Source: an uncultured Anaerolineae bacterium (GTDB taxonomy: Bacteria; Chloroflexota; Anaerolineae; Anaerolineales; Villigracilaceae). From it: 37,907 nt of DNA. Shown piece by piece: positions 15,869 to 37,907 of the stretch. Every line of letters begins with the position of its first letter. Within the stretch, counting starts at the first letter, position 1. The translations under genes were made by a program, and so were the position numbers. The notes below the pieces were generated by a model. The model saw nothing but the letters and a program-made list of their open reading frames with translations, did not search any database and was not told the origin of the DNA. The stretch is from the NCBI GenBank assembly GCA_937120535.1, contig CAKZJX010000035.1, forward strand, positions 1 to 37,907, read 5' to 3'.

Positions 15869-15985
15869 CTATGATGCTGCACGTACCCTGGCTTTCGCCG
15901 TCCCAACCACAAATAGGCCCTTAATGATGATAAGGACCGCAAGCAGGACAACGATAAGCGAGAGGAAGTGCAGTACGTTTGGCAT
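15869..15985 (-). CDS. Leader peptide of the branched-chain amino-acid operon (38 aa)
   Basis: Between a strong promoter and the attenuator lies a 38-codon ORF with 18 branched-chain codons: V4 L5 L8 L10 I11 V12 V13 L14 L15 V17 L18 I19 I20 I21 L24 V26 V27 V34. The densest stretch is codons 10-21, and the C-terminus is basic (K31, R33, R35). The composition, position and terminator/antiterminator mimic the ilvGMEDA and ilvB leaders of enterobacteria. The peptide itself probably has no function; its translation senses charged tRNA-Ile, -Val and -Leu. The ribosome binding site is weak (CAGAG) and the untranslated leader is only about 13 bases. The main alternative is a single-span membrane peptide, since the sequence is hydrophobic. 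Stop TAG lies 25 bases before the terminator stem. Confidence 0.78.
15897..15938 (-). promoter_or_regulatory. Antiterminator and pause-hairpin segments of the ilv leader
   Basis: Inside the leader-peptide coding region the segment GGTTGGGACGGC (15908-15897) can pair with GCCGCCCAACC (15841-15831), which is the 5' arm and loop of the terminator. This gives 11 bp with one bulged A. Just upstream, GGTCCTTA (15938-15931) and TAAGGGCC (15923-15916) form an 8-bp hairpin (one G-U pair) over the Val-Leu-Ile-Ile-Ile codons and could act as the pause hairpin. A ribosome stalled on the Ile/Val/Leu run would leave the antiterminator arm free. Pairings were found by hand; no energies were calculated. Confidence 0.7.
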
Positions 15986-16004
15986 AGCTCTGAAGTTTGG
16001 TATG

Positions 16005-16032
16005 ATTATAGGCAGATTTGCGATTCCGTCAA
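16005..16032 (-). promoter_or_regulatory. Sigma70-type promoter of the ilv-leu operon
   Basis: Minus strand TTGACG (16032-16027), a 16-base spacer, then TATAAT (16010-16005). The start is expected near 15998. The MITE-like element begins about 10 bp upstream of the -35 box, so any upstream activator site has been replaced or displaced. Confidence 0.8.
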
Positions 16033-21644: not shown

Positions 21645-22970
21645 CTATACGCGTCGATCGGCCGCTCGTGCGTGGGCCTCCAGGCCCTCCGAGCGGGCCA
21701 AAACCGCCGCCGGCCCAGAGAGCGCTCGGCCGGTCGTCTCGTCCAATGCCACCAAACTGATGATCTTCACAAAATCCCACACGTTCAACGGCGAAGCAAA
21801 GCGCGCCGTCCCACCGGTAGGCATCACATGGCTTGGGCCGGCGAGATAATCGCCCAACACCTCAAACGAATACTCGCCCAAAAACACCCCGCCGGCGGCC
21901 GTGATCTTGCGGCTCACCTCCCATGGATCGTGCACCGCCAAACACAAATGCTCTGGCGCATACACATTCGAAAGCTCGATCGCCTCCTCCAAATCGCGAG
22001 TGACCACCAACCCACTGCGGTGCTGTAGGGATTGCTCAAAAATCTCCTGCCGCGGCAACGTTTCCAACTGTCGGCCGATGGCGGCCTGCACCGCCTCGGC
22101 CAACGGGCGCGATGGCGTGAGCAAAATAGCCGAGGCCAACACGTCGTGCTCGGCCTGGGCCAACAGATCGGCGGCCACCCATTCTGGGCGAGCCGTATCG
22201 TCGGCGATGACCACTGTCTCAGTAGGGCCGGCCAGGCCGTCAATGCCCACAACGCCAAACACCTCACGCTTGGCCAACGTCACGAACAAATTACCCGGCC
22301 CGAAGATCTTATCCACCGGGCGAATGGAGGCCGTTCCATAAGCCAAAGCGCCGATGGCCTGAGCGCCGCCCATCGCATACACCTCATCCACGCCGACGAT
22401 AGCGGCTGCTGCCAGGATGATCGGCGCGATCTGTCCCGTCCCGCGCTGAGGCGGCACGGCCAAGGCGATCTCCCTCACTCCAGCCACCCGGGCCGGCGCC
22501 GCCGACATAATCACACTCGACGGCAAAGGCGCCGTCCCTCCCGGCACATACAATCCCACTCGTTCGATCGGTCGGATCAACTGCCCCAGCACCCCCCCCA
22601 TCTCCTGCGTCAACCAAGAAATCAAGGGCTGCTTCTTATAAAACGCCTCCACCCGTTGAGCAGCTTGCTCCAACGCAGCTTGCTCCTCGGCAGAGATCAT
22701 CCGACGAGCTGCGTCCAGCGTCTCCTGGGAGACGCGGAAATGCTCCGGAGCCTTGCCGTCCAGTTTCTCGGTCCAAAAGCGAAGCGCCTCATCGCCTCGG
22801 CGACGAATATCGGCCAAGATATGTTGGACCGCCTGCTGGGGCGTCAGGCGTTGACCGAAAGTAGCTTCGATTCGATCGAGCAGTGAGGCCGGCACCTCTG
22901 CATCGTCCCAGGGCCGGCGTTTCAGAATCGTCGTTCGAGCGATTTGTGAGTCGAGAATAGGGATCATCAT
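21645..22970 (-). CDS. hisD: Histidinol dehydrogenase
   Basis: A 441-residue zinc enzyme that performs the last two steps of histidine synthesis. Family motifs are complete: [52 protein letters not shown] with [15 protein letters not shown] (catalytic and metal His) and YAPEHL. It stands alone: no other his genes adjoin it. ATG 22970 is used; a second ATG at 22967 has a slightly better spacing from AAAGG. The terminator 26 bases upstream leaves no room for another promoter, so transcription must pass the attenuator. Confidence 0.95.
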
Positions 22971-22995
22971 TGCCTTTTCTGCAGCGTATAAAAAA

Positions 22996-23013
22996 CTCCC
23001 GCTACAGCGGGAG
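22996..23013 (-). terminator. Intrinsic terminator (attenuator) before hisD
   Basis: Minus strand CTCCCGC, loop TGTA, GCGGGAG, then TTTTTTATA. It lies 26 bases before the hisD start. It could also terminate readthrough from the LamG gene upstream. Confidence 0.88.
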
Positions 23014-23034
23014 CCAGATGAGTGAAAAAACTCT

Positions 23035-23103
23035 TTAGGACACGCCCAGGCCGCCTGCTGAGGCAGATCGAGTCAAACGATGAGAAAAATGCAGGTGGCC
23101 CAT
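23035..23103 (-). CDS. Probable histidine leader peptide before hisD (22 aa)
   Basis: ATG 23103 opens a 22-codon ORF ending at TAA 23037-23035, 21 bases before the terminator. It encodes three His in the first eight residues (H3, H5, H8 in [10 protein letters not shown]), far above the usual frequency. The codons sit exactly where a His-starvation sensor would be needed, overlapping the first arm of a three-segment switch. Ribosome binding is weak and the untranslated leader is very short (about 4-9 bases), so near-leaderless initiation is assumed. With only three His codons, not in a run, the sensing is less obvious than in enterobacterial his leaders; chance is not excluded. Confidence 0.55.
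23049..23100 (-). promoter_or_regulatory. Attenuator segments 1 and 2 of the hisD leader
   Basis: Segment 1, GGCCACCTGC (23100-23091), overlaps the first two His codons and pairs with segment 2, GCAGGCGGCC (23058-23049), with one mismatch. Segment 2 (extended, CAGCAGGCGGCC) can instead pair with the terminator region GGCTCCCGCTG, with one bulge and one mismatch. This is the 1:2 / 2:3 / 3:4 logic of a ribosome-controlled attenuator. Found by hand; not energy-tested. Confidence 0.55.
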
Positions 23104-23113
23104 GCTGGGCCAT

Positions 23114-23143
23114 ATTCTATTGTAAAGACACAAAGATTGTCAA
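23114..23143 (-). promoter_or_regulatory. Promoter of the hisD transcript
   Basis: Minus strand TTGACA (23143-23138), 18 bases, TAGAAT (23119-23114). The -35 box overlaps the stop codon of the LamG gene. An alternative pair, TTGCCT and TACAAT with 18 bases between, lies a few bases upstream. Confidence 0.65.
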
Positions 23144-33135: not shown

Positions 33136-36100
33136 TCACACCGCTTTGACCAGACCAACCGTCAGCGTTTCGCCGTCGAAATTGTCTTGCAGGGTGGCAG
33201 CCTCAGCCGGCGGGGCGGCAAATTGCAAATCGACCGTCAACGTCTCGGTCATGATATATTTCCGATGGGCGTTGACTGCCTCTTGCAATCCATCACTGGC
33301 AGTGACGAACAGCCGGATGCGATCGGCCACGTCTAGGCCGGTCGTCTTGCGCAAGTCCTGAACGCGGCGCACGAACTCTCGCGCCAAGCCCTCGCAAACC
33401 AACTCAGGGGTCAGCTCGGTCACCAGGGCAGCCACATACGCCCCATCTTCGGCAACAGCGAAGCCGGCCTTGGCTTGGGCTTTGATCTCCACTTCCTCCG
33501 GTAGGATCGAATACGTCTCGCCGTCCACAGAGATCTCCAGGGGGCGGCCAGAAATCAGGGTGCGGACAACCTGCTCCGGGTCTAGGGAGAGAATCGCCTG
33601 ACGAATGGCCGGGAAGCGATTGCCGTATTTCTGGCCGAGTTGTTTGGGCAGGGGTTTCACAGTGTGAAAAACCGCTTCGGTAGCGGCATCCAGCAGGCGG
33701 ACGTGTTTGACGTTGAGTTCGTCGGCAATCAGGTCGGCGAAGGCCTCCACTGCCCGCCGTTCGGCGGGGTTGCCCACCGAGAACGCCGCCTCTTTCAAGG
33801 GCTGGCGCACGCGGCGGTTGGCCTTTTGCCGCGCCGAATGCCCTAGGGAGACCAGCTTGAGGACCACGTCCATATCGCGGTTGAGGGATTCGTCAATGCG
33901 GGCGGCGTTGACTTCTGGCCAGAAAGCCAGGTGCACCGATTCAGGGGCCGTCGGGTCCACGCTGCGCACCAGGTTTTGATAGAGTTCCTCGGCGAGAAAG
34001 GGCATGGACGGGGCCAGCAGTTTAGACAGGGTCACCAGAGCAGTGTAGAGGGTGGAGTAGGCCGCCTGCTTGTCGGCGTCGGATTCGGATTTCCAGAAGC
34101 GGCGTCGAGAGCGGCGCAGGTACCAGTTGGAAAGTTTCTCGACGAAGTCTTGAATCGGACGGGTGGAGCACGGGGCGTCGTAGGTCTCGTAGCCTTCGGT
34201 CACCTCACGGACCAAGACGTTCAACTCAGAAAGCAGCCAGCGATCTAACACCGTGAGCGAGGTGTGACCGTGGCCCTCGGCTAAGCCAGGTGAAGGTTTC
34301 CAGCCATCAAGATTGGCATAGGTAACGAAGAAGGAGTAGACGTTCCACAGGGTGAGGACGAAATCGCGCACCACAGCGCCAACCAGGTTGACCGAGAAGC
34401 GACGTTCTTGTCCAGGCGGGCTGGCCGTGTATAGGTACCAGCGAAAGGCGTCGGCGCCATGAACATTGAGCACATCCCATGGATCAACGACGTTGCCCAA
34501 GCTCTTGGACATTTTGCGTCCTTGCTCGTCTAAGACCAGGCCGAGGCAGATCACGTTCTTGTAGCAAGCGGTATCCATCAGGAGGGTACTGATGGCATGG
34601 AGCGAGTAGAACCAGCCGCGGGTTTGATCGACGGCCTCGCAAATGTAATCGGCAGGGAATTGGCGACGGAACATCTCCTGGTTTTCAAAGGGATAATGCC
34701 ACTGAGCATAGGGCATGGCACCGGAGTCAAACCAGCAATCAATCACTGCCGGCACCCGTTCCATGCGGCCACCGCAGGCTTTGCAGGTCCAGGTGATCTC
34801 GTCTACATAAGGGCGGTGTAGGTCGAGGTCCGAGAGGTCGCGGCCGGCCCGTTCAGAGAGCTCAGCCACCGAGCCGATGCACTCGCGCTCCCTGCAATCC
34901 ACACATTCCCAGATCGGCAAGGGGGTTCCCCAATAGCGTTCGCGGGAAAGGGCCCAATCAACGTTATTAGCCAGCCAATTCCCGAAGCGACCCTCCTTGA
35001 TGTGAGCAGGGACCCAGTTGATGGTGCGATTCAATTCGACCAGGCGATCTTTGTATTGGCTGGTGCGAATGTACCATTCATCGCGAGCGTAATAAATCAG
35101 CGGGGATTTACAACGCCAGCAGAAGGGGTAGGTGTGAGTATAGGTTTCGGCGCGGAGCAGCAAGCCGCGGGTCTGCAGGTCTTGGATGATGTATGGGTCG
35201 GCGTCCTTCACAAGCATGCCACGCCAAGGCTTGACTTCAGGGATGAAGGTGCCGTCGGGCAAGACAGTGATCAGGACCGGAAGATCGTACTCCAGGGCCG
35301 CTTCCATGTCTTCAGCGCCGAAAGCCGGGGCAATATGCACCAGACCAGTGCCGTCTTCGGTGGTCACGAAGTCGCCCAGCACTACATAGTGGGCCGGCTT
35401 GTCGGGCGGCAAGAAGGTAAACAAGGGATGATACTTCAATCCTTTGAGCTTCTTCCCCTTCATGCTCTCCACCACCCGCACCGCTTCGTCGCGGAAGACC
35501 CGCTTGAGCAGCGACTTTGCCAAGATCAATTTTTCGCTGCGGCCATCTACAGAGCGCTCCACGACCACATATTCTTCTTCTGGGTGAGCTGCCACGGCCA
35601 CGTTTCCGGGCAACGTCCAAGGGGTAGTCGTCCACACCAGGAGAGATGTATCTGGCCGGTCCACCAAAGGGAAACGGACAAAGATGGAAGGGTCAACTGC
35701 CTCGTCGTAACCTAAAGCGACTTCATGATCCGAGAGGGTGGTGCCGCAGCGCGGGCAATAGGGCACCACTTTGTAGCCTTTGTAGAGCAGATCGCGCTCG
35801 TAGAAGTTCTTGAGGATCCACCATTCTGTCTCGATGTAATCGTTAGTGTAGGTGACATAGGCCGTCTCCAAGTCTACCCAGAAAGCGATGCGCTCGGTCA
35901 AGCGCTCCCAGTCCTGGATGTAATCGAAGACCGATTTTCGGCATTCGGCGTTGAAGCGAGCGATCCCATACTCCTCGATCTGCTGTTTGCTCGTCCAGCC
36001 GTGCGTTTTTTCGACTTCAATCTCGACCGGAAGGCCATGCGTATCCCACCCACCCCGGCGGATGACGTGGTACCCACGCATGATCTTATAGCGGGGGAAC

Positions 36101-36303
36101 ATGTCCTTGAACGCACGGGCTAGGACGTGGTGCACCCCCGGCTTGCCGTTAGCGGTGGGCGGGCCTTCGTAGAAGACGTATTCTGGGCCACCTTCACGCT
36201 GCTCCAGGGTTTTTTGGAAGATACGCTCGCGCTTCCAGAATTTTAGGATCGCCTCTTCCATGGCGACCACATCGAGTTTTGGGGATACCGGTTTAAAGGC
36301 CAT
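33136..36303 (-). CDS. ileS: Isoleucyl-tRNA synthetase, type 2
   Basis: A 1055-residue class I synthetase. The HIGH-type motif appears as GKPGVHHVLAR and KMSKS as GRKMSKSLGN; the editing domain (TTTPWTLPGNVAV) is present. PPTANGKPGVHH with the long C-terminal extension and no zinc-finger end is the pattern of the eukaryote-like type 2 enzymes, often mupirocin-resistant. ATG 36303 (MAFKPV) with GGAGG four bases upstream is preferred to 36327, which would start before the Shine-Dalgarno. It is controlled by a T-box. Confidence 0.95.
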   Translation of the reverse strand: MAFKPVSPKLDVVAMEEAILKFWKRERIFQKTLEQREGGPEYVFYEGPPTANGKPGVHHVLARAFKDMFPRYKIMRGYHVIRRGGWDTHGLPVEIEVEKTHGWTSKQQIEEYGIARFNAECRKSVFDYIQDWERLTERIAFWVDLETAYVTYTNDYIETEWWILKNFYERDLLYKGYKVVPYCPRCGTTLSDHEVALGYDEAVDPSIFVRFPLVDRPDTSLLVWTTTPWTLPGNVAVAAHPEEEYVVVERSVDGRSEKLILAKSLLKRVFRDEAVRVVESMKGKKLKGLKYHPLFTFLPPDKPAHYVVLGDFVTTEDGTGLVHIAPAFGAEDMEAALEYDLPVLITVLPDGTFIPEVKPWRGMLVKDADPYIIQDLQTRGLLLRAETYTHTYPFCWRCKSPLIYYARDEWYIRTSQYKDRLVELNRTINWVPAHIKEGRFGNWLANNVDWALSRERYWGTPLPIWECVDCRERECIGSVAELSERAGRDLSDLDLHRPYVDEITWTCKACGGRMERVPAVIDCWFDSGAMPYAQWHYPFENQEMFRRQFPADYICEAVDQTRGWFYSLHAISTLLMDTACYKNVICLGLVLDEQGRKMSKSLGNVVDPWDVLNVHGADAFRWYLYTASPPGQERRFSVNLVGAVVRDFVLTLWNVYSFFVTYANLDGWKPSPGLAEGHGHTSLTVLDRWLLSELNVLVREVTEGYETYDAPCSTRPIQDFVEKLSNWYLRRSRRRFWKSESDADKQAAYSTLYTALVTLSKLLAPSMPFLAEELYQNLVRSVDPTAPESVHLAFWPEVNAARIDESLNRDMDVVLKLVSLGHSARQKANRRVRQPLKEAAFSVGNPAERRAVEAFADLIADELNVKHVRLLDAATEAVFHTVKPLPKQLGQKYGNRFPAIRQAILSLDPEQVVRTLISGRPLEISVDGETYSILPEEVEIKAQAKAGFAVAEDGAYVAALVTELTPELVCEGLAREFVRRVQDLRKTTGLDVADRIRLFVTASDGLQEAVNAHRKYIMTETLTVDLQFAAPPAEAATLQDNFDGETLTVGLVKAV

Positions 36304-36362
36304 CGAGCCTCCATAAGAATAGAACATGATGTCAGATAGGCAGCAAGTAGGACTAAGTAACG

Positions 36363-36632
36363 AAAAACTCCCGTCTCTATATCAGAGACGAGAGTGTCAC
36401 TCCCGCGGTACCACTCTGATTCCTGCCCGAGAGGACAGGCGCTCTGCCGAGGTCCATCAACCCCGCGCCCGGGTAACGGCGGGCGAAGCCGTCGCCCCTA
36501 CTCGGCCATGATTCAAGCCTTTCAGGTTGCCGCTCCGGGAGGATTTTCGCCCTGGTTCACCGACCTGCTTCACACCAGCCGCAGGCTCTCTGGCGGATCC
36601 ACAGGGGTACTCGTTCCCATCATTGCGTTTGG
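36363..36632 (-). promoter_or_regulatory. T-box riboswitch sensing tRNA-Ile
   Basis: Minus strand leader with Stem I marks GGGAACGAGTA, CCAGAGAGCC and GGCTGGTGTGAAGC. The specifier loop, GCGAAAATCCTCCCGGAGC, carries ATC (36544-36542), the Ile codon, in the same context as in Bacillus ileS leaders. The conserved T-box AGAGTGGTACCGCGG is at 36417-36403. Uncharged tRNA-Ile would pair with the T-box bulge and stabilise the antiterminator. Confidence 0.93.
36367..36395 (-). terminator. T-box terminator of ileS
   Basis: Minus strand ACTCTCGTCTCT, five-base loop, AGAGACGGGAGT, then TTTTT: one mismatch in a 12-bp stem. It ends about 60 bases before ileS. Confidence 0.9.
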
Positions 36633-37831: not shown

Positions 37832-37907
37832 GTTACGGTCGGTGGGGCGGTCACCCGCCCCACCGCCGATTCAGAACCGGACGTGAGCGTTTCCCCTCAT
37901 CCGGCTC
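37832..37907 (-). mobile_element. Group II intron, 3' end (domains V and VI)
   Basis: The last 34 bases (37907-37874, minus) are a canonical domain V: GAGCCGGATG at one end with the AGC triad, GGAAAC in the loop region and CGTCCGGTTC at the other. Domain VI follows (37865-37840: CGGTGGGGCGG, GTGA, CCGCCCCACCG), with a bulged A at 37839 above a GG/CC base. The 3' splice site should be near 37832. The rest of the intron, with any reverse transcriptase, lies outside the window. Confidence 0.85.

Follow-up and report, generated by a model that had tools for sequence, protein, structure and literature searches.

What controls a hisD gene that stands apart from the rest of its operon? The question is raised by a locus on the minus strand of the window, by which we mean the whole stretch of 37,907 nucleotides analysed here, contig 35 of a 3,110,644-base genome (G000). 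The gene presumed to be controlled encodes histidinol dehydrogenase (hisD, 21645–22970; PF00815, E 2.4e-156), and its best named relatives, at 75–77% identity, come from Anaerolineales MAGs of Chloroflexota (L032, L033). A sequence-only reading of the region upstream had described a promoter, a short His-containing ORF, two pairing segments and a terminator, and had proposed an attenuator of the enterobacterial type. The promoter is present as described, with a −35 element TTGACA (23138–23143) and a −10 element TAGAAT (23114–23119) separated by an 18-nt spacer and together giving 11 of 12 matches, as is the leader ORF of 22 codons with His codons 3, 5 and 8 (23103–23035). The leader ATG lies 10 nt downstream of the −10 element, and the usual spacing would place the transcription start at about 23108–23106, which implies a 5′ UTR of only some 3–5 nt. 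Segment 1 (GGGCC-A-CCTGC, 23091–23101) begins inside the start codon, spans the first His codons and pairs in the predicted fold with positions 23058–23048, which form part of segment 2 (TCAGCAGGCGGCCT, 23048–23061). The terminator search likewise bore out the intrinsic terminator, GGCTCCCGCTGTAGCGGGAGTT followed by a T run (22994–23015), which ends 23 nt ahead of the hisD ATG at 22970. Upstream lies a LamG-like ORF of the same orientation, whose stop codon (23142–23140) overlaps the −35 element; transcripts that read through from it, and so have a long 5′ part, are possible.

Judging from these parts and from their relatives in other genomes, we consider it very likely that hisD is controlled by a ribosome-mediated transcription attenuator that senses charged His-tRNA. 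The DNA itself shows the parts, that they are conserved and that they recur across the class; from them we infer a start site, translation, stalling and a switch that would work as follows. RNA polymerase would start a few bases ahead of the leader ATG, and the ribosome would therefore load on a 5′-terminal AUG without a Shine–Dalgarno sequence. When His-tRNA is scarce, the ribosome would stall on His codons 3–8 and cover segment 1, segment 2 would be free to capture the 5′ arm of the terminator, and transcription would enter hisD. When His-tRNA is plentiful, the ribosome would reach the stop codon and cover segment 2, the terminator would form, and transcription would end after about 110–120 nt. 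If the leader is not translated, pairing of segments 1 and 2 would favour the terminator.

The simplest competing explanation is that an ordinary promoter and terminator happen to flank a chance ORF that contains some histidines, in which case the only control, if any, would be constitutive partial termination. To this explanation the hisD leader offers some purchase, as it has only three spaced His codons, and these alone are poor evidence: when 107 hisG upstream regions are shuffled, 8.4 on average still have a short ORF with at least 3 His within 8 codons. The arrangement as a whole is rarer. Among 20,000 dinucleotide-preserving shuffles of the hisD upstream region, a comparable promoter appeared in 1116, a promoter followed 6–12 nt after the −10 element by an ATG that opens an ORF of 8–50 codons in 47, and the full combination, in which the first 12 codons also include three His, in none.

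The 124-nt leader folds better than expected (z = −2.85; 0 of 200 shuffles equally good), and the proposed pairing of segments 1 and 2 ahead of the terminator was recovered in a leader fold of −24.3 kcal/mol. As for the further claim that segment 2 can pair with the terminator 5′ arm, the duplex between 23061–23048 and 23015–23004 does form in the calculation, at −14.9 kcal/mol, but 35% of the arms of other leaders pair equally well, and the antiterminator is thus individually not significant. In addition, when the full terminator is available, the fold of lowest energy contains it even with the ribosome stalled, so that the switch would have to be kinetic. Modelled capture of the 5′ arm in the hisD leader is 0.85 with a stalled ribosome, 0.21 with a ribosome at the stop codon and 0.65 in naked RNA, the last value suggesting that protection by 1:2 pairing is weak here. 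Since the antiterminator and the three His codons of this single leader are weak, it is the comparative evidence that carries the case.

For this comparison the class was taken as Anaerolineae, and HisG was searched in 298 of its genomes, 105 of which gave a match. Upstream DNA came from 30 loci retrieved automatically and from 60 of the other 75 HisG matches (L201 was dropped as too short); loci from HisD and HisG searches of the family and of named contigs were added, so that the sample is not even. Of the resulting 118 upstream regions, 51 contain a short ORF with 4 or more His among 8 codons, and 18 more contain one with 3 His. After removal of three short regions (G043, G127, G253) and eight redundant ones, at least 4 His in 8 codons occurred in 44 of 107 hisG upstream regions, as against a mean of 0.9 (maximum 2) in ten shuffles and 2 of 107 on the reverse strand. 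The same ORF test gave 25 regions for Ala (11.4 shuffled, 15 on the reverse strand), 8 for Val (1.0 shuffled) and 5 for Lys (0.7 shuffled); these residues exceed their shuffles far less than His, which is the outlying amino acid. A clear His leader was absent from more than half of the 107 regions, and no Rfam family reached its gathering score upstream of hisG in 20 loci chosen for lacking one. For an outside comparison, 109 genomes had a HisG match, 94 of them lay outside the class, and 40 of these were sampled: none of the 40 upstream regions from other Chloroflexota had at least 4 His, and one had 3. This class-wide His enrichment argues against a chance ORF before hisD. Seven of the hisG leaders (G020, G052, G055, G068, G079, G273 and L036) share the peptide tail HGREVYVRVP, or one that is one or two residues off, which may be kept because its codons also serve as an antiterminator segment, or because the peptide itself has a function.

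The same leaders bear on where translation begins. For each, the start was placed, without regard to the promoter, at the most downstream ATG that still leaves the His cluster inside the ORF, and 43 of the 107 regions qualified. With this ATG as the reference point, TTG recurs at positions −39 to −37 of the 43 leaders and a word resembling TATAAT at −16 to −11. In 23 leaders the best −10 element ends exactly 10 nt before the ATG, and in 34 it ends 7–11 nt before it; of the remaining nine, four (G014, G017, L037, G336) have, by eye, an earlier in-frame ATG 9–10 nt after the −10 element. A Shine–Dalgarno-like word was present in 1 of the 43. The promoter spacing implies a 5′ UTR of about 0–5 nt, with no Shine–Dalgarno sequence, and it lends support to the earlier suggestion of a nearly leaderless start at hisD; the leader ORFs of the His attenuators probably start at or near the 5′ end of the RNA and would be leaderless. 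As far as is known, the phylum in general does not share this property, since a computational survey put leaderless genes in Chloroflexi at 4.7% for the 4 of 12 genomes in which any were detected (PMC3160421). That attenuators of the class are leaderless as a rule is not supported by trpE: two Trp among 8 codons of a short ORF were found ahead of it at 4 of 30 loci (four of the 30 were shortened, and the region scanned there is approximate), and only one locus, L262, looked leader-like by eye. In G000 itself the TrpE N-terminal family had no match. Between the −10 element and the ATG, a G+C-rich stretch with GCCCA was seen by eye in 8 of the 9 hisD and hisG leaders of G000, G020, G055, G079 and G043. 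It could bear on promoter control; it was rejected as a defining feature, being present in only 11 of the 43 leaders class-wide, and is a family-level trait.

Terminators were assessed in a set of 48 leaders, comprising the 43 hisG leaders, that of G043 and four hisD leaders. By an automatic rule, 44 of the 48 have a terminator, 19–59 nt past the ORF, compared with 2–9 of 48 in ten shuffled sets. This bears on a further alternative, that the leaders act through a translational switch or a trans-acting peptide rather than by transcription attenuation. Leaderless leader peptides with other outputs are indeed reported, namely the mycobacterial polycysteine ORFs and peTrpL of S. meliloti as described in the sources cited below, but an intrinsic terminator so regularly placed after the ORF, and the 64 nt that separate the leader stop codon from the hisD ATG, make this alternative very improbable.

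How specific the antiterminators are varies. When each terminator 5′ arm was matched with its own leader, at most 5% of foreign arms did equally well in 15 of 44 leaders (median 17%), a modest specificity; the own arm of some hisG leaders was even worse than the average mismatched arm. None of the four hisD leaders is among the 15; the fraction of mismatched arms doing as well is 26% for G020, 72% for G079 and 79% for G055, and the terminator arms of the four hardly vary. A model of ribosome states, with the stall at the first His of the cluster and run on 45 leaders (the G000 hisG leader being added by hand), gave a median 5′-arm capture of 0.74 when stalled, 0.27 at the stop codon and 0.55 in naked RNA; part of the effect at the stop codon is trivial in such a model, because less RNA is free. 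With the intervening segment shuffled, median capture was 0.49, compared with 0.74 for the stalled state (Wilcoxon p 4e-12), which speaks for the switch at the level of the class. Segment 1 pairing reached 0.80, and 0.60 when the tails were shuffled (p 7e-6). Pairing of the first nine nucleotides, among them the start codon, was 0.32 as against 0.21 in the control. The leaders are related, and the p values are therefore optimistic.

We also asked whether other hisD genes outside the operon carry such a leader. A search for HisD gave a match in 33 of 61 family genomes, and from named genome contigs the best 80 loci were kept. At 22 of 30 family loci hisG lies directly upstream of hisD, and in G020, G055 and L033 (which is genome G079) hisD is separate as in the window. 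The leaders of these three genes read MRNQMHPRHHAN..., MRTCQINRHHHV... and MRTFRLHHHHST... and encode the peptides MRNQMHPRHHANTLLPGRAA, MRTCQINRHHHVSPPSPGRAA and MRTFRLHHHHSTTPSTGRVV, so that the His codons for which relatives were to be examined are there, three to four of them at the same place (HHHH, HHH and HPRHH), a recurrence that a chance ORF would hardly produce. Their layout is TTGACA, then TAGAAT, TAAAAT or TACAAT, then an ATG 8–12 nt after the −10 element (counted by hand), and the terminator arms CTCCCGCT and GCGGGAG are identical in all four hisD leaders. Together with the class-wide hisG leaders, the three displaced hisD leaders support the enterobacterial type of logic that had been proposed for this locus, and the hisD leader of the window is one member of a set of probable Anaerolineae His leader-peptide attenuators, here on a displaced hisD. 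That every displaced hisD carries a His leader is ruled out: at seven further hisD loci with no hisG neighbour detected, at least 3 His in 8 codons occurred in none of the 450-nt stretches scanned, and the hisD leader is thus known from four genomes only.

A DNA search with the window leader in 41 genomes (its own and 40 relatives) and plasmids found only itself, because the transcribed part diverges fast, and its relatives were reached instead from matches to the HisD and HisG proteins. When the first 100 nt of each transcript are compared, the leaders of the other three hisD genes align with each other (z 20–27, single-base shuffles) and with hisG leaders (z 3.4–9.7, single-base shuffles). 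Such similarity points to copying, and the probable origin of the hisD leaders is a copy of the hisG-operon attenuator made when hisD left the operon. The leader of the window shows no significant alignment over this length, either to the other hisD leaders or to those of hisG (z −1.2 to 1.7), and its kinship rests on promoter, spacing and terminator. This divergence, like the antiterminator that is not significant by itself, would also be expected of a chance ORF; with the shuffles, the other hisD leaders and the class-wide enrichment all pointing the other way, we regard that explanation as quite improbable.

The divergence of the window leader raises another reading, in which it is a degenerating copy of a hisG leader that is losing its His codons and switch strength in this species. 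Three spaced His compare poorly with the runs in the other hisD leaders and with HAHAHHH in the hisG leader of the same genome. HisG and IGPD have one match each in G000, both on contig 114, where the hisG operon opens with its own leader MAQRHAHAHHHPISRLAGWCWRVGM (MAQRHAHAHHH...), with the ATG 11 nt after TATAAT and followed by a hairpin of −18.8 kcal/mol, whose T run begins some bases later, so that the automatic rule missed the terminator. Elsewhere, hisG leaders with HHHH or more occur in G020, G055 and G079 and one with HVHH in G043, and no His leader was seen upstream of hisG in G080. The genus context also fits decay: HisG and IGPD had no match in 7 of 7 same-genus genomes examined (G001–G007), and HisD none in 5 of 5, some of these genomes being 84–98% complete. 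The species of the window, unlike G001–G007, keeps HisG and IGPD. Against degeneration, the promoter, the ATG spacing and the terminator are all kept, as is the modelled contrast between the stalled state and the stop codon. We think decay unlikely; a leader that still switches, but weakly, would fit both this reading and the main one.

The window holds other leader elements, among them a T-box (105.8 bits; 36381–36632, minus strand) closely preceding a gene for a class I aminoacyl-tRNA synthetase of the tRNA-synt_1 family (33136–36327, minus strand). The presence of this T-box elsewhere in the window might suggest that the hisD leader, too, is a T-box or another catalogued RNA element, a notion to which we give practically no weight: no Rfam family reached its gathering score in the hisD leader, and both T-box and His_leader are absent from the 14 matches up to E 10 at seven leader loci. 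Identity with the His_leader family RF00514 was accordingly rejected, as it had no gathering-score match in the window and none up to E 10 at those loci. A leader peptide also precedes ilvD of an ilv-leu operon (whole feature 15869–16010, minus strand), with TATAAT at 16010–16005 and an ORF at 15985–15869 that ends 23 nt before the ilvD ATG. Its ATG lies 19 nt after the −10 element, unlike in the probably leaderless His leaders, and no terminator was seen by eye in the 23 nt before the ilvD ATG, so that control there may be translational or by coupling. At the contig end, a match to a group II intron is truncated (37832–37907, minus strand).

Leader-peptide attenuation is a textbook mechanism for Proteobacteria. 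The Anaerolineae leaders share with the enterobacterial his attenuator a short His-rich peptide, alternative hairpins and an intrinsic terminator before his genes. They differ from it in their phylum, Chloroflexota, in a leader ATG that is apparently at the RNA 5′ end without a Shine–Dalgarno sequence, in a second copy on a lone hisD and in the missing match to RF00514. A paper by Lopatovskaya and others (2010), cited in an earlier survey, may contain predictions of a related kind. RF00514 is described as the his operon attenuator of enterobacteria, and as absent from the his attenuators of Firmicutes (PMC9413887); leader-peptide attenuation has been reported in some Actinobacteria and Firmicutes (PMC9413887, PMC2965389). 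The his and hisS/hisZ leaders of Firmicutes likewise combine runs of His codons with a terminator and an antiterminator, but belong to another phylum, and the passages on them in these papers mention neither leaderless leader ORFs nor a displaced hisD (PMC9413887, PMC2965389). An attenuator RNA that begins with the leader-peptide ATG is described for trpL (rnTrpL) of S. meliloti, where the amino acid is Trp and the organism an alphaproteobacterium, whereas here it is His, recurrent in one class of Chloroflexota (PMC7298713). The mycobacterial polycysteine ORFs (Canestrari 2020) are likewise short and leaderless, lie ahead of an operon and contain runs of the codon that is sensed (PMC13236596, PMC9031893); a citing review has them regulate downstream translation, whereas in the Anaerolineae leaders an intrinsic terminator is conserved. 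In C. glutamicum, as in the window, a long leader precedes a separate hisD operon and there are leaderless his transcripts, but that leader is described as lacking a His-containing ORF, with a T-box proposed, and the leaderless transcripts are those of his genes and not of a leader peptide (PMC3896937). As for surveys, an Rfam-based one with five Chloroflexi genomes suggested a possible gammaproteobacterial origin of amino-acid attenuators (PMC3766115), the text of one on premature terminators lists His leaders of hisS genes in bacilli with no occurrence of 'Chloroflex' (PMC2965389), and one on leader genes has too few Chloroflexi genomes to judge by (PMC4833913). Among the matches listed in our searches of open-licence literature, none described a leader-peptide attenuator in Chloroflexota.

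What distinguishes the Anaerolineae set thus appears to be a start codon apparently at the 5′ end of the RNA. In many leaders the region of the start codon would lie inside segment 1, so that the ribosome would have to load on the 5′-terminal AUG before segment 2 is made. A bolder view, which we put forward tentatively and hold to be rather doubtful as a whole, is that the class has its own His attenuator built on leaderless initiation, which would report both His-tRNA charging and the capacity for initiation at 5′-terminal AUGs and which was copied along with the departing hisD. If true, His leaders at the RNA 5′ end throughout the class would show that the coupling of attenuation works without a 5′ UTR, and they would offer a natural series in which to study how the switch depends on the moment at which the ribosome loads. 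An attenuator would also, if this is true, have been copied so that a split pathway stays co-regulated.
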